A DNA stretch of 64,000 nucleotides from Salinibacterium amurskyense (lineage in GTDB: Bacteria; Actinomycetota; Actinomycetes; Actinomycetales; Microbacteriaceae), in NCBI RefSeq assembly GCF_002797685.1, contig NZ_PGFH01000002.1, positions 1 to 64,000 of the forward strand, read 5' to 3'. Shown here in pieces: positions 1,103-9,762 of this stretch (position 1 is the first letter of the stretch; every line of letters begins with the position of its first letter). Both the position numbers and the translations under genes were made by a program. The notes beneath the pieces were generated by a model. It did no database searches. It was not told the DNA's origin and worked only from the letters and a program-made list of their open reading frames with translations.

Positions 1103-2542
1103 TCAGGGCGCTACGGGGGCGAGGGGGAGGTGCAGCGCGAAGGTCGCACCGCCTCCGGGGGTAGGCCGCAATTGCACCGAGCCGTGATGCTGGATCGCGA
1201 TCTCCAGAGTGACGGCGAGCCCGAGACCGGCGCCGTCGTGACTGCTCCGTACGCGAGACGGGTCTGAGCGATAGAAGGGCTGGAAGATCTTGTCGCGTTC
1301 GTCTTCAGGGATGCCGGGGCCATAATCCACGATGCTGACTATGGCTTCGGCCTCGGTGAGGCTCGCCATGAAAGAGACTGCAGTGTCGTCGGGGGTGTGG
1401 CGGCACGCGTTCGCGCCCAGGTTGAGCAGTGCCTGATGCAACTGGGCCGCGTTGCCCGCCAACGAAGCGTGGGAGATGGCGGTGAGGTCGGCGTCGATGG
1501 CGCGGGAGGGGAACGCGACCCGCAGGTCGTCGATGACATTTTCTGCCACGGTGACAAGGTCTACGCGTTCATGTTGAATCTCGAGCGGCTTGCCGTCCCG
1601 CACGAGTTGCAACATCGAGTTGACCAGCACGTTGAGGCGGATGCTCTCGTCGCCGACACGGGACATCGCCCGGTCGAGTGCTCCGGGAGTGGACAGCATG
1701 TCTTGCGCGTAGAGGTCGCTGTAACCCTTCAGGGCGGTTAGTGGGGTGCGGATCTCGTGAGCGACATCCGCAAGCAGACGACGCATGTCATCCCGGGCAC
1801 GAGTGGCATCGGCGGCGGACTGCTCGCGTTCGGCTAGAGCGTCGCGCAGGCGGTTCACCATGCGATCAATGTCGGTGGTCAGTTCGGCGATCTCACGGGA
1901 TCCGCCTGCCGGAACGATGGGGATCTCTAGCTCGCCATCGGCAATGCGCGTGACGCTGCGAGCGACTCCAGCGATCGGGCGAGCAATCTGGCGGGCCAAG
2001 AACCACGCCATTGCCGCTTCGAGCAGAGCGATCGTGACACCGCCGGCGACGAGGGTGCCGCGCAGGCTGGCGAGAGCCGCGTTGTAGGTGTCGAGCGATA
2101 GTGCGGTGATGCGTACGACACCTTCCGGACTCGGCGAGAGGAGTACGCGGTAGTTATCGACCGTCACGGTGGCGCTCGACGTCACGGCGCCGAAGTACGT
2201 GAGGTCTTCTGCAGTGAAGGGGTGCGTGATTCCCTGATTGTCGAGCAGGGTGCCGTCGAGCGAGATAGTGAACTGAACTGGAAGGGTCGAGTCATCCACT
2301 CCGGAAGTAGGCGGCTGCTCGGTCTCCGCATCGGGTGCCGGGCGAACGCCAGAGGGCTCGGGCGCGTCAACGGCGGGCGGCGGAAGGTTGGATACTTCGG
2401 CACGGGCGAGTTCGGCATCCACTTCGGCTAGGCGAAGCGAGCGTTCACTGACATCCACAGCGACGGCGAAGGCGAGGAATCCGACCAGGATTGTCGCAAG
2501 AACGGGGAGCAGCAGCATCCACCGCAGAGAGAGGCGCCTCAC
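1103..2542 (-). CDS. Two-component sensor histidine kinase, HAMP/HisKA
   Basis: 479 residues. TM1 is about residues 9-29. An extracytoplasmic region to about 160 has a Pro/Glu-rich start, followed by TM2 (about 163-183), HAMP, and a HisKA domain with phosphoacceptor H262 in DVAHEIRTPL. The HATPase shows the N box (NLGANACRHT), DYGPGIP and GAGLGLAV. It starts with a GTG that overlaps the response-regulator stop as GTGA, so the two are translationally coupled. The sensed signal is unknown. The divergent neighbours (YHYH lipoproteins and HupE) are the obvious candidate targets. Confidence 0.92.
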   Translation of the reverse strand: MRRLSLRWMLLLPVLATILVGFLAFAVAVDVSERSLRLAEVDAELARAEVSNLPPPAVDAPEPSGVRPAPDAETEQPPTSGVDDSTLPVQFTISLDGTLLDNQGITHPFTAEDLTYFGAVTSSATVTVDNYRVLLSPSPEGVVRITALSLDTYNAALASLRGTLVAGGVTIALLEAAMAWFLARQIARPIAGVARSVTRIADGELEIPIVPAGGSREIAELTTDIDRMVNRLRDALAEREQSAADATRARDDMRRLLADVAHEIRTPLTALKGYSDLYAQDMLSTPGALDRAMSRVGDESIRLNVLVNSMLQLVRDGKPLEIQHERVDLVTVAENVIDDLRVAFPSRAIDADLTAISHASLAGNAAQLHQALLNLGANACRHTPDDTAVSFMASLTEAEAIVSIVDYGPGIPEDERDKIFQPFYRSDPSRVRSSHDGAGLGLAVTLEIAIQHHGSVQLRPTPGGGATFALHLPLAPVAP

Positions 2543-3243
2543 GGAGCATCCTCGCGCAGAACATAACCTATGCCGCGACGAGTATGTATAAGTGGCGGAT
2601 GCCCGTCGTCGAGTTTTCGGCGAAGATACCCGATGTACAACTCGACAACATTCTCACTGCCGGTGAAGTCGTCTTGCCAGACCTCAAGCAGAATTTGGGC
2701 CTTCGAAAGCACGACCCCGCGATTGCTCATCAAGTAGTGAAGGAGGCGAAACTCGGTGGCCGAGAGATCGACAGGTTTTCCGGCACGACGTGCTTGATGG
2801 CCGGCGAGATCAAGAGTAAGCGAGCCAACCTGCAGCATCGAGGGTGCCGCGGTGGGGTTGGTGCGACGCAAGATGGCCGCAACGCGAAACACCAGCTCGT
2901 CGACGGTGAACGGTTTGGTCAGATAGTCGTCGCCGCCCGTAGCAAAGCCGCGGATGCGATCTTCGGGTTCTGCCAGCGCAGTGAGAAACAGGATGGGGGT
3001 TGTTGACCCGGTCGCGCGCAGGCGGCGGCACACTTCGAGGCCATCGATGCCGGGGAGCATGACGTCGAGAACGATGAGATCAGCGGGCTGGGCGAGCGCC
3101 GAGGTGAGCGCCTGATGGCCATCGGCGACGCTCGTGACAGCATGCCCCTGAAAGCTCAAGGCGGTGGTGACGACATCGCTAATAGCCTCGCTATCCTCGG
3201 CGACGAGGATGCGGTGGGCGGGAGACTGCGGTGTGTTCGACAC
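2539..3243 (-). CDS. OmpR/PhoB-family response regulator
   Basis: 234 residues. The receiver domain has the acidic pair at E16/D17, phosphoacceptor D60 in LIVLDVMLPG, and the conserved Lys in YLTKPF. The C-terminal winged helix ends with the usual RRKLDDG...RRGIGYVLR recognition region. It is the first gene of the pair with the kinase and is transcribed away from the YHYH genes, with only 84 bp between the start codons. Regulation of that divergent set is therefore plausible but unproven. Confidence 0.93.
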   Translation of the reverse strand: MSNTPQSPAHRILVAEDSEAISDVVTTALSFQGHAVTSVADGHQALTSALAQPADLIVLDVMLPGIDGLEVCRRLRATGSTTPILFLTALAEPEDRIRGFATGGDDYLTKPFTVDELVFRVAAILRRTNPTAAPSMLQVGSLTLDLAGHQARRAGKPVDLSATEFRLLHYLMSNRGVVLSKAQILLEVWQDDFTGSENVVELYIGYLRRKLDDGHPPLIHTRRGIGYVLREDAP

Positions 3244-3277
3244 TCGCCGAATCTAGCAAGAAAAACTGTGCCAAAGT

Positions 3278-3293
3278 TGTGGCGAATTCCACA
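3278..3293. promoter_or_regulatory. Inverted repeat between the response regulator and YHYH genes
   Basis: TGTGG-CGAATT-CCACA is a perfect 5-bp inverted repeat around a self-complementary centre. It lies in the 84-bp divergent region, 35 bp before the first YHYH lipoprotein. It could be a regulator site, but one occurrence is weak evidence. Confidence 0.3.
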
Positions 3294-3327
3294 GCGTGAC
3301 CACAGCAACCGCGCTGAGGGTGTCACT

Positions 3328-4395
3328 ATGAACACAACTGTACGGCGCGACATCCGCCTCAAACGTCCCCCGCTGTTCGCGGGCGTGCTCGTCCTGTCAG
3401 CCCTCGCGCTGGCTGCGTGCGCTTCAGCTGACACCACCAGCTCGACCTCAACCGACGATGCCACGACTGCCGTTGCCGCGGGTCTCGACCTCGACCTCTT
3501 TGTCGATGGCGCCATTGTTGGCGACCCTGCAACCGTTGACTGCACTCTCAATGGTGGAGCCGAAACGACCTGTTACGAGATCACGATCTCGGGCTACCCC
3601 ACTGATCATGAGATCGGGCCCTTCTGCCCCGACACGACTTCTACTTCAGCTGACGACGCTGGCATCTGGTTCGACGGCGAAGCTGTCTACGACCTCGATG
3701 GGGAGTTCATCGCGAACCTCGCCGAGACCTACGGCGACGACGGTTGGCACATGTACGACGAAGACGGCAACGTCTACGTCACCGATACCGCTGAGGCTTT
3801 CGAAGCCGCTGCGCGACCGGATGTCGACCCCGAGTACCAGAACTACTGCATCGAGGGTAGCTACGACTTCCTCGACAACGGTGAGCCGATTGAGTCGACC
3901 GTGCTGATCCCCACGACCCCCGTCGCTGCTGACGCTTCAGCGGCACCGCAGGGCAACCAGGGCATCACGCTTGACGGCGTGGTCATCGCCGAGTCCGCTC
4001 CCGTTGACGCCATCCTCGGCGCCTACACGATCGCCTCATTCGACGACTGCGGTGGACACTTCAACCCCTTCGAGGGCTACCACCTGCACGGTGCAACCGG
4101 ATGCTCCGAGAACGGTGAAGCCACTGACGGCGAGACCGCAATCTTCGGTTACGCCATGGACGGCTACGCCGTGCACAGCCCCTACAGCGAAGAAGAACTC
4201 GCGAACGTAGAACTCGACGACTGCAACGGTCACTCGACCGAAGAACTCGGATACCACTACCACGCGAACTCTGCTGAAAAGAACCAGGTCATCCAGTGCC
4301 TCGTTGGCCAAACAGTAGCCAGTGACGACGCCGCCGGCGGCGCTCCGGCTGGTGGGCCGCCCGCAGGTGGGCCTCCGGCAGAACCCAACGAGTAG
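3328..4395 (+). CDS. YHYH-domain secreted lipoprotein (first paralogue)
   Basis: 355 residues. A lipoprotein signal peptide has its lipobox at LALAAC31, so the protein is probably anchored outside the membrane. After a Ser/Thr/Asp linker comes a Cys-containing domain, then the YHYH region. This holds CGGHFNP, a YHLH at 251-254 and the family-defining YHYH at 309-312; paired His residues suggest metal binding (inference). The tail is GGAPAGGPPAGGPPA, a flexible Gly/Pro/Ala run. The ATG at 3328 gives the signal peptide directly; the frame is open further upstream without reason. It is the first gene of a three-gene run with its paralogue and HupE. Function unknown. Confidence 0.85.
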   Translation: MNTTVRRDIRLKRPPLFAGVLVLSALALAACASADTTSSTSTDDATTAVAAGLDLDLFVDGAIVGDPATVDCTLNGGAETTCYEITISGYPTDHEIGPFCPDTTSTSADDAGIWFDGEAVYDLDGEFIANLAETYGDDGWHMYDEDGNVYVTDTAEAFEAAARPDVDPEYQNYCIEGSYDFLDNGEPIESTVLIPTTPVAADASAAPQGNQGITLDGVVIAESAPVDAILGAYTIASFDDCGGHFNPFEGYHLHGATGCSENGEATDGETAIFGYAMDGYAVHSPYSEEELANVELDDCNGHSTEELGYHYHANSAEKNQVIQCLVGQTVASDDAAGGAPAGGPPAGGPPAEPNE

Positions 4396-4449
4396 CCCTC
4401 ACTGCGACTGCAACTGATCATCTCTGACTGAAACCTCAGGAGAACTATC

Positions 4450-5526
4450 GTGACTACATCCGCTCGGCTCGTGCTCGTGCCATTGGCCTGTCTGGTGTTG
4501 CTGGCCAGCGCCTGCGCTTCGGCTGACACCGCAACCGACGGCGACAGCAGCAGCTCAGCAACGTCGGCCACCGACGTTGAGGTTGCCGCACTGTTCGCTG
4601 ACGGGGCGCTCACCGCAGACCCCATCACGGTGGACTGCACCCTCGAAAATGGCAGCGAGACAACCTGCTACCAATTCGAGGTGGACAGCCTGTCGACGGC
4701 CGTTGATTCTGACGGACCGTACTGCCCGGCGACGACATCGGATGTCGGCGGTATTTGGGTGTGGGACGGCGAAGACCCCGGGCTGTATGCGCTCGATGAG
4801 GACTTCTGGGATCTCATGTCGGCTCAGGGATATGAGTTTGCAGACGAGAACGGCGACGTGACGATCGTGGACCCTGCGGGCGGAGCTCCGTCGTCATCGA
4901 CGACAGAGAACTCCTGCCTGCAGGCCACGCCGGATGACAGCTACCACCTGCAGGTGCTGATCCCGACGACTCCCGAGCTTCTCGATGAAGCCACGGATCT
5001 GTCGACGATCTCGCAGGTCGGCCTCGCCTTTGACGGCGTGACGATCTTCGGCGATGCTCCCTCGGTGGGAGACACCGGCGGACTGCCAGCACTTGATGCC
5101 TGCGGTGGCCACATTGACCCCTCGGGGTACTACCACTGGCACTTCGGTGCCGAGTCGATCCAGTCGAACTTGGATGCCGCGGGCGCGAACGTATCGTGCG
5201 CGATCGAGCAAGACAACGAAGCTGCCGTCGCATTCTCCTATGACGGCTACGTGATCTACGGCTCGGAAGAGGACGGCGCAGTACCCACCGACCTCGATGA
5301 GTGTGGTGGACACGTCTCCGACACTGAAGAATTCGGTGAGGTCTACCACTACCACCTCAGCACCGACTCGCCCAACCTGCCCGTCTGCCGCGTGGGAGCC
5401 AGCGCGACCGGCAACCTCACGAGCCCGGATGGCGAAGGAATTTCCTTGCCGAACGGTAGCGGTGGCGGCAATGGTGCACCCGCGGGTGGACCGCCCGCCG
5501 GTGGCCAGCCTGGACGAGACGAGTAG
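4450..5526 (+). CDS. YHYH-domain secreted lipoprotein (second paralogue)
   Basis: 358 residues, paralogous to the preceding gene. It shares the lipobox (LLASAC22ASAD), the CTLENGSETTCY stretch, a YCPATTS block, CGGHIDP, a YHWH at 228-231, the YHYH at 299-302 and a GGPPAGG-type tail. An AGGAGA ribosome-binding site precedes the GTG start. The gap to the first paralogue is 54 bp. The two copies have diverged through the central region, so the duplication is old and both copies look functional. Role unknown; the conserved HxH pairs point to a metal ligand. Confidence 0.85.
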   Translation: MTTSARLVLVPLACLVLLASACASADTATDGDSSSSATSATDVEVAALFADGALTADPITVDCTLENGSETTCYQFEVDSLSTAVDSDGPYCPATTSDVGGIWVWDGEDPGLYALDEDFWDLMSAQGYEFADENGDVTIVDPAGGAPSSSTTENSCLQATPDDSYHLQVLIPTTPELLDEATDLSTISQVGLAFDGVTIFGDAPSVGDTGGLPALDACGGHIDPSGYYHWHFGAESIQSNLDAAGANVSCAIEQDNEAAVAFSYDGYVIYGSEEDGAVPTDLDECGGHVSDTEEFGEVYHYHLSTDSPNLPVCRVGASATGNLTSPDGEGISLPNGSGGGNGAPAGGPPAGGQPGRDE

Positions 5527-5530
5527 TTAG

Positions 5531-6685
5531 TTGCACCATTTAGCAACCGCGGCACCCCAGCGCGGTGGGCTCTCGCTTCGAGCGAGACTCATCGCGCTGG
5601 CGGTGCTTGCCGCAACAGTTGTTGCCGTGATTGTGCCAACAGCAGCGTGGGCCCATGACGGTACGAGCGAAGCGCTCACGCTGACCGTCGATCAAGGGCG
5701 GGCAGTCGGTACCGGGCTCGTTGAATTCGCCGAACTGGGTCTCGAAGACACCAACGGTGACGGACTGATCGATGCCACCGAACTGAGTGAGCAAGAAGCC
5801 ACGGTCGCCGCGACTCTCGTGGAGACGTTGCGCGACAACGTCACCCTCGCGGTCAACGGCGAAGAGCTCTCGATCATCGGGGCTGGGCTGTCGTTTCGCA
5901 ACACCGACAGCAGCACCGACAGCGAGCTCGAGGCATCCGAATATGTTGGAGTCGCGTTCGCGTCTTCTGAGTTTGAGGGCGACCTCAACGAACTGACGGT
6001 GTCGTGGTCGTTCACGTCGCCCAGCAACGCCATCCTGTTCTCGGATGCCGACAGCGCGATTCTGGGACACCTGAGCGACGACGGCGTTGTCTCCTTCGCT
6101 CTCGGCACCTGGGCCACTGCCACATCCTTTCTTATGCAGGGCATCGACCACATCCAGTTCGGCCCCGACCACCTTCTCTTCTTGATCGTGCTTGCTCTCG
6201 GCGTCGTCGGAGTGAAAAAAGGCCGCGCCGTCTGGTGGCCAGCAGTGAAGCTCGTAACCGCGTTCACCCTCGGGCACGCCATTAGTCTGTGCCTCGCCTA
6301 CTTCGGTCTCGTGAACATTCCTGCCGGTGTCGTTGAGCCGCTCATTGCGCTCTCGATTGTGGCCGCCGCCGTGCTCGCCCTGCGCCGCAAAGCCGCAGAG
6401 TACCGCTGGTGGATCGCCGGCGTCGTAGGCCTCGTTCATGGGCTCGGCTTCGCCTCGAGCCTGTCGAGCCTGGGCCTCGTCACCTCAGATCATGTGATCG
6501 CGCTTATCACCTTCAACCTCGGCATCGATATCGCTCAGACCGTCGTGGTGCTGATCGTGCTCGCCGTCGCCCTGCTGCTGATGCGCTGGGTGCCGAAACG
6601 GTTCGAGATCCTGCGAATCATCGTCTGTGTCGCCATCGGAATCATGGGGTTGTTCTGGACGATTACGCGGGTGCTGCCGCTCTAA
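5531..6685 (+). CDS. HupE/UreJ-type membrane protein with EF-hand loop
   Basis: About 384 residues. A signal peptide (cleavage near AAWA-HD) leads into an extracytoplasmic domain. That domain has a textbook 12-residue EF-hand loop at 73-84 (DTNGDGLIDATE), with Asp/Asn/Asp/Asp/Glu at ligand positions 1, 3, 5, 9 and 12. The C-terminal half is the HupE/UreJ-2 membrane domain with GIDHIQFGPDHLLF, FTLGHAISL and GLVHGLGFAS, whose His residues fit metal handling. The start is a TTG 4 bp after the previous stop; a later start would cut the signal peptide. Transport of nickel, cobalt or copper is family-based inference only. Confidence 0.85.
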   Translation: MHHLATAAPQRGGLSLRARLIALAVLAATVVAVIVPTAAWAHDGTSEALTLTVDQGRAVGTGLVEFAELGLEDTNGDGLIDATELSEQEATVAATLVETLRDNVTLAVNGEELSIIGAGLSFRNTDSSTDSELEASEYVGVAFASSEFEGDLNELTVSWSFTSPSNAILFSDADSAILGHLSDDGVVSFALGTWATATSFLMQGIDHIQFGPDHLLFLIVLALGVVGVKKGRAVWWPAVKLVTAFTLGHAISLCLAYFGLVNIPAGVVEPLIALSIVAAAVLALRRKAAEYRWWIAGVVGLVHGLGFASSLSSLGLVTSDHVIALITFNLGIDIAQTVVVLIVLAVALLLMRWVPKRFEILRIIVCVAIGIMGLFWTITRVLPL

Positions 6686-6796
6686 GCGTCAATCTGTCGC
6701 GGCCCGCCGCCATAGTGGTGGACGTAAAATGGAGACACAACTTCTGTCGCCGGGCGCACCGCCGACAGCCAGTTCTCTGCTTCGAAAGGCTGCGCC

Positions 6797-8257
6797 ATGC
6801 ACTCGACTTCTGACTCCCACCCGCACACCGCTCCGGCAGCGTCAGTGCCGCACCCTGATCGTGGCGACCCGCGCTTGCCGCACTTGCGCAACGCAACCGG
6901 GTTCATCGAGTACATGGAAACCGGGTGGGCTACTCCCGATCGCACGCCCGACACCGTGCCGGGCATCGCCGCGGCCACGGCAGCGCACCGCGAGCGGTTG
7001 AGCCCCGCGTTTGCCGGCCGCACGATCGTGGTGGTCGGCGGCGTCGCGCCCGTGCGCGTGAACGACAACTATTACGGGTTCCGCCCCGACAGCAATTTCT
7101 TCTGGTTGAGCGGATGCTCGGCCGAAGACGCCGTGCTCGTGATGAGCCCCACAGCCGGCGGCCACGACGCGACGCTCTTTATTCCCGCTCCGGCATATCC
7201 CGGTGAGGCAGACTTCTTTGCGGATGCCGCCCACGGTGAACTCTGGGTCGGCTCCGCCCCCGGGATGCCCGAGTGGACTGCCGCGCTGCAGATTGAGACG
7301 CGTCCGCTCTCGGAACTCGATGCGGCTTTGGCCCGCGCGAGCGATATCGCGCTGACGGGATCGCTGCACGGCGCCCGTTCGCTGTTGCGCGACATCCCGG
7401 TCTCGCACGATCTTGGTCGGGTGCTCTCGGAAATCCGCATGATCAAAGACGAGTGGGAAATCGCCGAACTGCGCGGTGCCGTGAATCACACCATCGAGGG
7501 CTTCAAGGCGGTCGCTCGCGAGATTCCGCAAGCCATCGAGTTCGGCGGCGAACGCTGGTTGCAGGGCACCTTCGACCGGTACGCGCGCACCGTCGGCAAT
7601 AGCACCGGGTACACGACGATCGTCGGCAGCGGAAAGAATGCACCCGTGCTGCACTGGGTGCGCTGCGACGGCCCCGTGAATCCCGACGCTGCCGTGCTGC
7701 TCGACATGGGAGTGGAAGCCCGCTCCTTATATACGGCGGATGTCACGCGCACGCTTCCGGCATCCGGAACGTTCTCGCCCGCCCAGCGCCAAGCGCACGA
7801 CCTGGTTGAGAAGGCGCACCGTGCGGGGCTCGCGGCGGTTGGCCCCGGCAAGATCTTCAGCGACTTTCATCTCGCGGCGCTCGAAGTGATTGCGACCGGT
7901 CTGCACGACTGGGGCATGCTTCCCGTCTCGGTCGACGAAGCGTTGAGCCCGCAGGGCCAGCACCACCGCCGCTACATTGTCTGCGGCATCGGTCACCACC
8001 TCGGCCTCGATGTTCACGACTGCGCACAGTCGAGCTATTCCGCCTACCAGAGCGGCGAACTCGTGCCTGGAATGGTCATGGCTGTCGAGCCCGGACTGTA
8101 CTTCCACGAGTGGGATAACACGGTGCCACCCGAGCTGCGGGGCCTCGGCGTGCGCATCGAAGACAACGTGATGGTCACCCCGACCGGCCACGAAGTTCTC
8201 TCCGAAGCACTGCCAATCACGGCGGATGGCATTGAAGGGTGGATGCGCGGCCTCTAA
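6797..8257 (+). CDS. Xaa-Pro aminopeptidase (M24B)
   Basis: 486 residues. It has an N-terminal AMP_N domain with the NDNYYGFRPDSNFFWLSG signature, and a C-terminal pita-bread metallopeptidase fold. Metal ligands are visible in LLDMGVE...YTADVTRT (two Asp), GIGHHLGLDVHD (His) and the Glu residues of MAVEPGLYF and VRIEDNVMV. It removes N-terminal residues before proline, using two Mn/Co ions in the cytoplasm. It starts at ATG with AAAGG about 10 bases upstream. The length is normal for the family. Confidence 0.93.
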   Translation: MHSTSDSHPHTAPAASVPHPDRGDPRLPHLRNATGFIEYMETGWATPDRTPDTVPGIAAATAAHRERLSPAFAGRTIVVVGGVAPVRVNDNYYGFRPDSNFFWLSGCSAEDAVLVMSPTAGGHDATLFIPAPAYPGEADFFADAAHGELWVGSAPGMPEWTAALQIETRPLSELDAALARASDIALTGSLHGARSLLRDIPVSHDLGRVLSEIRMIKDEWEIAELRGAVNHTIEGFKAVAREIPQAIEFGGERWLQGTFDRYARTVGNSTGYTTIVGSGKNAPVLHWVRCDGPVNPDAAVLLDMGVEARSLYTADVTRTLPASGTFSPAQRQAHDLVEKAHRAGLAAVGPGKIFSDFHLAALEVIATGLHDWGMLPVSVDEALSPQGQHHRRYIVCGIGHHLGLDVHDCAQSSYSAYQSGELVPGMVMAVEPGLYFHEWDNTVPPELRGLGVRIEDNVMVTPTGHEVLSEALPITADGIEGWMRGL

Positions 8258-8304
8258 CCAAGGACAATGGGGAGAGATCGCTCATTTTTTTGAAAGGTGC
8301 ATAC

Positions 8305-9762
8305 ATGGAAATCTTCGCCACTGGCGGACTCGTCCTCCTCATCGGAATCGGGGTGGTCATCCTTGTTGTACTTTTCTTGGTCATGTTGCTGATCGCTCGC
8401 GCCTGGTTCAAGGTCGCCCGAGCCGACGAGGCTCTCGTCGTTTCGGGACGTTCGCAAAAGGACTCCTCGGGTAAAGACTCCGCCGTCACGGTTATCGTCA
8501 ACGGCAAGGCGTTGGTCAACCCGATCACGCAGCGCCACGAGACAATCTCGCTGCGTTCGCGTCAGGTATCGATGACCGCTGAAGCGCAGTCGGCCGACAA
8601 CGTGACGTTGCAGGTTGAAGCGGTTGCGATCGTGAAGATCGGTTCGGACCCGATGCTGGTTCGTCGCGCTGCTGAGCGTTTCGCCTCGCAAGACCAGGCC
8701 ATCGAGCAGTTCACGACAGAGCAGCTCGAAGGTGCTCTTCGTGGTGTTGTTGCCACGCTGTCTGTTGTTGAACTCATGCGTGAGCGCAAGAAGTTCTCTG
8801 ACCAGATCGCAACGGATGTCTCAACTGAGCTTGCCGAGCAGGGCCTCATTCTTGACTCCTTCCAGATCAAGGGCATCGGCGACAAGGTTGGCTACATCCA
8901 GTCGCTCGGAACCCCGCAGATCGAGTCGAAGCGTCGCGAAGCTGAGTTGGCTACTGCCGACGCAAACCGCGAAATCTCCAAGCGCAACATCACCGTTGCC
9001 GAGGCGAACCTGATCGAGCAGACCGCGCTCGACAAGAACACCGCAGACTCCAAGGCCGAGGTCGGTAAGGCTAACGCTGAAGCCGAGCAGGCCGAAGCTC
9101 TCGCTCGTGCCCGTGCCGAGCAGGGCGTTCTACAGCAGCGTGCTGAGAACCGTCAGGCGGAGCTCGACGCTGACGTGAAGCGTCTTGCTGACGCCAACCT
9201 GTACAAGGCGCAGAAGGATGCCGACTCCGACGCTTACCGTCTCGTCAAGGGTGCAGAAGCTCAGGCTCAGATCGCCGCCGTCGAAGCTGAAGCAGTGCGC
9301 GTTCGCGCCGCTGCCGACGCGGATGCCACCCGCCTTGCCGGTGAAGCAAAAGCTGCGAGCATCGAAGCTGAAGCCGCGGCTCTCGCCAAGCACCAAGACG
9401 CGCTTCTCGCTCAGCGCGCCCTCGAAACCCTGCCGCAGGTTATGGAGCAGTGGGCCAAGGGTTACGGCCAGATCGGTTCTGTCACCGTTATCGGCGGCAG
9501 CGGAGCCAGCGGTGGAGACACCGTCGGCACCGAAAGTGCTGTTGCGCTGCGTGGAACGTTCGAGTCGATCAAGGCTGCAACCGGCCTTGACCTCGCGTCG
9601 ATCATCCAGGGCCGCACCGTTGGTCAGGCTGTTGGTGAAGGCGCTCGTGGAGAGTCGAACGACAGCACTCGCGGCGCCACGCTCGCGCAGGCAGCAAACA
9701 CCGTCGCGAATGCGGCACCTCAGTCGGTTCCGGCCGCTACCGAGGGCGACACGGCTGAGTAG
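8305..9762 (+). CDS. Flotillin / SPFH-domain membrane scaffold protein
   Basis: 485 residues from the ATG at 8305, which has GAAAGG upstream. One N-terminal TM helix (about 8-30) is followed by an SPFH/band 7 domain, then a long coiled coil rich in Ala, Glu and Arg (many EAEA and RAEQ repeats). The C-terminal part has a Gly/Ser-rich stretch. Flotillins form membrane-edge oligomers that organise lipid domains. The gene has its own terminator and appears monocistronic. No NfeD partner is visible beside it. Confidence 0.93.
   Translation: MEIFATGGLVLLIGIGVVILVVLFLVMLLIARAWFKVARADEALVVSGRSQKDSSGKDSAVTVIVNGKALVNPITQRHETISLRSRQVSMTAEAQSADNVTLQVEAVAIVKIGSDPMLVRRAAERFASQDQAIEQFTTEQLEGALRGVVATLSVVELMRERKKFSDQIATDVSTELAEQGLILDSFQIKGIGDKVGYIQSLGTPQIESKRREAELATADANREISKRNITVAEANLIEQTALDKNTADSKAEVGKANAEAEQAEALARARAEQGVLQQRAENRQAELDADVKRLADANLYKAQKDADSDAYRLVKGAEAQAQIAAVEAEAVRVRAAADADATRLAGEAKAASIEAEAAALAKHQDALLAQRALETLPQVMEQWAKGYGQIGSVTVIGGSGASGGDTVGTESAVALRGTFESIKAATGLDLASIIQGRTVGQAVGEGARGESNDSTRGATLAQAANTVANAAPQSVPAATEGDTAE

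Follow-up and report, generated by a model that had tools for sequence, protein, structure and literature searches.

The DNA analyzed here, the first 64,000 nucleotides of Salinibacterium amurskyense contig NZ_PGFH01000002.1 (GCF_002797685.1; hereafter, the window), carries a five-gene set in which two tandem lipoproteins of the YHYH family (Y1 and Y2) and a HupE_UreJ_2 permease (HupE) are encoded divergently from a histidine kinase (HK) and an OmpR-type response regulator (RR). This module is real and conserved, and it plausibly has a metal-capturing role. We propose that the set captures copper or a metal like it at the extracytoplasmic surface and probably hands it on to HupE, under dedicated two-component control, a reading that in our judgment has about an even chance of being right. 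The YHYH family, so far functionless, would thereby acquire a role that can be tested and a well-defined genetic system. The proposal also suggests how Gram-positive bacteria, lacking a periplasm, may keep metal at their surface and pass it on under a regulator of their own.

A gene set conserved within and beyond the genus

The first-pass annotation of this stretch, made from its letters alone, had described two paralogous YHYH lipoproteins with two HxH motifs each and Gly/Pro-rich tails and, next to them, a HupE protein with a perfect EF-hand loop at residues 73 to 84. Both descriptions hold (Table 1): Y1 and Y2 score 42.6 and 46.6 bits against PF14240 (cut-off, 25), a lipobox is recognizable by eye and a Gly/Pro-rich tail is present in both, and HupE scores 126.3 bits against PF13795 (cut-off, 24.5). 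HupE begins with a TTG codon 4 bp downstream of the Y2 stop, its start residue being identical in the sister proteins, and Y1, Y2, and HupE would form a single transcript. One feature had been missed, the histidine predicted at the N terminus of HupE, and the HK gene falls almost entirely outside the range then covered (2539-6685).

Table 1. Features of the gene set in the window and of two recurrent gene blocks at other loci
Feature	Position	Strand	Basis
Sensor histidine kinase HK (HAMP + HisKA + HATPase_c)	1103..2542	-	Pfam matches
OmpR-type response regulator RR (Response_reg + Trans_reg_C)	2539..3243	-	Pfam matches
Operator-like element, exact right half 3289-3305	3266..3305	.	Repeat conserved in cassette genomes
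Y1, YHYH lipoprotein (YHLH + YHYH, Cys31 lipobox by eye, Gly/Pro-rich tail)	3328..4395	+	PF14240
Y2, paralogous YHYH lipoprotein (YHWH + YHYH)	4450..5526	+	PF14240
HupE, HupE_UreJ_2 permease with extracytoplasmic domain	5531..6685	+	PF13795
Codon of HupE His42, predicted mature N terminus (AWA|HDGTS)	5654..5656	+	Cleavage read from sequence only
EF-hand loop DTNGDGLIDATE, HupE residues 73-84	5747..5782	+	Canonical loop, 12 residues
YHYH-DUF305 gene pairs	L037 14825-16401; L038; L050; L237; L277; L280; L282; L283		
ApbE/FMN-binding/ferric-reductase-like block	L035 11888-16746; L036 9711-16509; L225 11535-18326; L226 8188-13022		

The full HK-RR/Y1-Y2-HupE set is present in 5 of 27 Salinibacterium genomes (G000, G082, G197, G947, and G948). 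Y1-Y2-HupE recurs, with order and orientation kept, in a genome from another class of Actinomycetota (G837, locus L224; HupE, 50%; Y2, 64%; Y1, 67%). The conserved neighborhood to which the first-pass annotation had looked in relatives thus exists, and because the gene order is kept both in the five congeners and in G837, it is more than chance. A Y2 profile search of 395 genomes of the G837 class returned six at E ≤ 1e-20; only G837 had a close Y2, and the other five carried a Y1-type protein (54 to 64%).

Simpler YHYH-HupE pairs occur farther afield, so that related gene pairs are found across three bacterial phyla. In a Burkholderiaceae metagenome-assembled genome (L081), the YHYH gene ends at 6633 and a gene for an EF-hand HupE starts at 6637, 3 bp beyond it. 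On a plasmid of Deinococcus sp. KNUC1210 (L317), a YHYH gene (5953-6930) is followed after 4 bp by a HupE gene (6935-8029) whose product has a predicted N-terminal histidine and the EF-hand DDDADGLLSSAE; downstream lie regulator DNA in two frames only (8076-8363 and 8335-8736, broken or missequenced) and then a kinase. A Paracoccus seriniphilus plasmid carries Y2-like and Y1-like genes with cytochrome b561 and a heavy-metal P-type ATPase, and a search of plasmids with HupE of the window yielded three distant matches, all rhizobial.

Each family is patchily distributed. PF14240 was matched in 9 of the 23 Salinibacterium genomes searched as a group and, among the other four, in G000, G082, and G197 and not in G145; the positive genomes numbered 13 of 199 in the family, 17 of 396 in the phylum, and 18 of 299 in Pseudomonadota. 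PF13795 was matched in 8 of the 27 genomes of the genus, G954 among them, and G938 and G946 have a different HupE type, closer to L040.

What links the two families is adjacency, not co-occurrence at the genome level. Of the 15 genomes outside Salinibacterium in which both were identified, 2 have them within 5 kb of each other, against 0.077 expected (P = 0.0026); of these two, G221 was reached through HupE and G837 through YHYH, and the Deinococcus plasmid stands outside this count. Among 80 HupE loci, with Salinibacterium counted once, an adjacent YHYH gene was found at 2 of 5 EF-hand loci and 0 of 74 others (P = 0.003), or at 2 of 8 versus 0 of 71 when three loci rejected as EF-hands (see below) are included. 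All 80 loci were scanned with a custom profile, and PF14240 was searched in the genomes of 50.

HK orthologues were found in the four sister genomes (65 to 84%) and beside Y1 in G1290, one of the five genomes of the G837 class that carry a Y1-type protein (L312; 44 to 45%), where RR (59%) and HK lie downstream of Y1 in the same orientation. In a small tree (20 rows, background regulators scarce), the window RR groups with that of L312 (support, 96/94); the regulators of L228 and L232, which also adjoin YHYH genes, branch next, just below the support mark (94/90). An Acaryochloris regulator sat on a very long branch (7.4), and we claim no kinship for it.

HK-RR and Y1-Y2-HupE do diverge across an 84-bp gap (3244-3327), as initially annotated. 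The single inverted repeat described there is really a pair of 11-bp-spaced direct repeats in mutually inverted orientation, CTGTGc-N5-tTGTGG-N6-CCACAG-N5-CCACAG. Spacing of 11 bp is typical of many OmpR-type regulator boxes. The right half, CCACAG-N5-CCACAG, is present without mismatch in each of the five genomes that have the cassette and occurs once, both strands considered, in the 2.78-Mb genome of the window. Exact matches numbered one each in G000, G197, and G947, two in G948 (both in the gap), and three in G082 (one in the gap), and in genomes without the cassette two in G145 and none in G941 or G949. As a control, the same pattern read backwards was searched in the same eight genomes and gave none in G000, G197, G947, G948, and G949, one each in G082 and G941, and three in G145. 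From these counts against the control, the repeat is likely to be a narrow, mostly local regulator target in the genome of the window. The exact pattern was absent from L312 and L224, both loci having been searched, and promoter and terminator scans gave no result.

Predicted metal ligands in the permease and the YHYH proteins

Anglerases are permeases described in 2025 whose hallmark is an N-terminal histidine after the signal peptide, and the passages of that report (PMC12537917) bearing on them provide the closest comparison for HupE. The outer domains of two bind Cu(II) in vitro, at 74 and 62 nM, and in the crystal structure of Ang-1, His1 is a ligand. The window HupE resembles Ang-1 and Ang-2, as described in those passages, in its PF13795 membrane domain with a linked extracytoplasmic domain, and it may also share their histidine directly after the signal peptide (AWA|H, cleavage predicted by eye). 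All 14 HupE proteins in an alignment have this histidine. An automatic rule predicted it in 68 of 80 HupE loci, a count in which one or more loci are truncated (L110 among them) and a small number of frames are doubtful; of the 12 loci that the rule missed, inspection by eye assigned seven a histidine after the signal peptide and two an aspartate, three being unclear.

By sequence, the outer domain itself is not recognizably of the Ang-1 kind. In PDB searches by sequence only, it had no match to the Ang-1 structure 9GCE at E ≤ 1, whereas the control L101 found 9GCE at 7e-31. It was also unlike L040, L230, and L231 (hhalign probability, 0.5%), domains chosen by eye as Ang-2-like and not the published Ang-2. 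Unlike Ang-1 and Ang-2 in the passages on them, HupE carries an EF-hand and belongs to a gene set with YHYH proteins and a kinase/regulator pair. In eight EF-hand HupE domains, of which three came from Salinibacterium, three (L081, L088, and L060) had been noticed through an EF-hand regular expression and were in part selected for it, and two (L224 and L317) had not, the only invariant residues were the N-terminal histidine and loop positions 1, 5, 6, and 12. A Paenibacillus domain (L058) was excluded from this alignment; with its loop, DSNDNKMLEPEE, included, positions 5 and 6 would no longer be invariant. The eight-domain profile, from a set partly picked by regular expression, matched calmodulin EF-hands at E = 1.7e-6; the window domain alone matched only polcalcins, at E = 0.7. 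The EF-hand is single, not one of a pair. The regular expression matched 9 of the 80 loci, of which six were kept; L065, L100, and L116 were judged by eye not to be EF-hands (loop without glycine, last residue D). A HupE match to an MbnH-type NCBIfam model (15.6 of 362.85 bits) was taken as chance. Among the papers listed for HupE with an EF-hand, none was relevant by title. The newly described anglerase permeases would gain an EF-hand class.

Profiles of Y1 and Y2 can be aligned over 308 columns. Of 86 YHYH stretches read, 67 fell within a 230-to-420-residue filter and 62 were used, five divergent Pseudomonadota rows (L248, L251, L252, L253, and L255) having been excluded by hand; in those 62 diverse rows, H244, H252, H254, D278, G279, L296, D297, and Y311 are invariant (Y1 numbering, i.e., mature numbering plus 30). 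The second histidine of the YHYH motif varies, and the conserved ligand-type residues are three histidines and two aspartates. Y1 and Y2 are above the Pfam cut-off and share this His/Asp set with other PF14240 proteins, from which they differ as tandem lipoproteins with a Cys-containing N-terminal region of their own. By eye, the Y1 of L312 has an extra run, DHEHDDDDDHDH, behind the lipobox.

Candidate functions and competing readings

In the proposed mechanism, Y1 and Y2 would be held as lipoproteins on the external side of the membrane, where H244, H252, H254, D278, and D297 may form a transition-metal site. HupE would mature with its N-terminal histidine on the EF-hand-bearing outer domain, which would take up the metal and pass it to a His/Asp path in the membrane domain, presumably for uptake rather than efflux. 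The divergent HK/RR pair would act on the 11-bp-spaced repeats that lie between RR and Y1 and in this way control the module. This capture reading is strengthened by the predicted permease histidine, the invariant YHYH His/Asp residues, the gene order, and the operator-like repeat, as well as by the orthologous HK/RR beside Y1 in another class and by metal-handling genes near other YHYH genes; the chances we give it derive from the adjacency of the genes and from the residues, and co-occurrence at the genome level has no part in them. The first-pass proposal, that metal is captured and transferred under two-component control, is still the best reading. Direct sensing of metal by the kinase is unsupported, because the sensor region has no conserved His, Cys, or Met in six aligned orthologues.

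An analogue in function is copMRS of Synechocystis (PMC4335983), in which a secreted metal-binding protein likewise has its own two-component system, as proposed for the window set; CopM is a DUF305 protein, the operon as described in the relevant passages has no HupE, and we claim no sequence kinship. The earlier statement that no such system is described stands for the set, no YHYH/HupE/two-component system having been found in titles and passages, a coverage that largely leaves out subscription journals. It does not stand for the permease half, already described as anglerases.

As to the metal, copper appears most likely. A YHYH-DUF305 gene pair recurs at eight loci in two Actinomycetota families (Table 1), three of them Salinibacterium orthologues, and by analogy with CopM (passages of PMC4335983) these DUF305 neighbors may be copper linked. 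Further metal-handling genes near YHYH genes are those for a multicopper oxidase (L228), SCO1/SenC (L273), a heavy-metal P-type ATPase (L299), a CusB-type adaptor (L300), and NicO (L039 and L275).

Several results weigh against the capture reading. Genome-level co-occurrence of YHYH with HupE_UreJ_2, suggested at first pass as a check, was not borne out by three comparisons: PF13795 was over the cut-off in 5 of 18 YHYH-positive versus 11 of 54 YHYH-negative Pseudomonadota (the 54 taken from 281 genomes), in 2 of 16 versus 1 of 15 genomes from other families of Actinomycetota, and in 0 of 10 positive family genomes outside the genus versus 1 of 3 negatives tried. In 13 of the 15 genomes holding both families, the two are kept apart. 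In G837, the nearest kinase/regulator-like DNA lies about 5 kb from Y1 and is weakly similar (35% and 24%), and no kinase/regulator was seen at the L081 locus. Filing of the pair under CopRS/CusRS was rejected (RR, 191.5 of 279.2 bits, TIGR01387; HK, 155 of 292.55 bits, TIGR01386), as was a general enrichment of kinase/regulator genes near YHYH genes (10 of 126 near versus 5 of 112 far windows; P = 0.20). The backwards control puts the chance rate of repeat-like patterns at 0 to 3 per genome. Some YHYH neighbors, namely, PEBP, an amidohydrolase, and a sugar kinase, have no evident metal link, and a NicO nickel transporter directly beside a YHYH protein with a His-rich N terminus (L039, 8567-10746; L275; in G197 and G948) points to nickel or cobalt instead of copper.

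A wider generalization, which we consider rather unlikely, would make YHYH proteins widespread, unrecognized extracytoplasmic carriers of copper or another transition metal that serve transporters and regulators of many kinds (EF-hand HupE, NicO, DUF305, SCO1, multicopper oxidase, and CusB-type efflux), and would make EF-hand HupE, gated by calcium and loaded by these carriers, a third class of anglerases.

We think it unlikely that the YHYH proteins are instead metal-dependent hydrolases acting on a cell wall or surface polymer, with HupE supplying the metal or merely coregulated. A jumbo-phage survey (PMC7824862), in its passage on YHYH, predicts a tail-associated hydrolase with a Zn site of three histidines and one aspartate, with which the invariant set of Y1 and Y2 agrees, and L047, a YHYH protein of the classical kind, has matches among the PHROGs for phage baseplate and virion structure. 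Y1 and Y2, however, match no PHROG family, PDB sequence searches gave no credible YHYH relative that would support a hydrolase fold, and the conserved partner is a permease, although an enzyme using captured metal would be compatible with all three results. A phage origin of Y1 and Y2 was set aside, Y1, the only one of the two searched there, having no match in phages.

That the metal is nickel or cobalt, the module supplying a nickel enzyme in the manner of classical HupE, seems to us decidedly unlikely. HupE/UreJ-2 domains are called known nickel permeases, and the Ang-1 domain also binds Ni, at 220 nM, in passages of PMC12537917, and the NicO neighbors fit. In the same passages, however, the two characterized outer domains bind Cu best, and among metal-linked YHYH neighbors the copper-linked ones are the more numerous. 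We consider it very unlikely that the module works in redox chemistry outside the cytoplasm, by reducing metal or by transferring electrons through flavins, instead of supplying metal: an ApbE/FMN-binding/ferric-reductase-like block with a second kinase/regulator pair does lie beyond HupE in four sister cassettes, and Y2-like genes adjoin cytochrome oxidase and di-heme oxidoreductase genes on two plasmids, but no such block was seen in the first 16 kb of the window, where the cassette is intact all the same.

Other observations around YHYH and HupE genes

The redox block of the four sister cassettes is on the opposite strand. It precedes an M24 peptidase gene in three of them, and in L225 the 20 kb covered showed no such gene; in the window, an M24 peptidase gene directly follows HupE.

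Locus L228 (6150-13258) combines in one cluster a lipoprotein, a His-rich YHYH protein, the multicopper oxidase, a second YHYH protein, and a divergent kinase/regulator pair. Its lipoprotein (EVWADNW, by eye) seemingly recurs in L311 and L229, two of these proteins being without a Pfam match. In Pseudomonadota, PEBP proteins are fused to or adjoin YHYH (L257, 5326-7509; L309, 5203-6485; L316, 5920-6561). Behind a Y1-like gene, L262 encodes a small secreted protein (5775-6113), without a Pfam match, that has a predicted N-terminal histidine.

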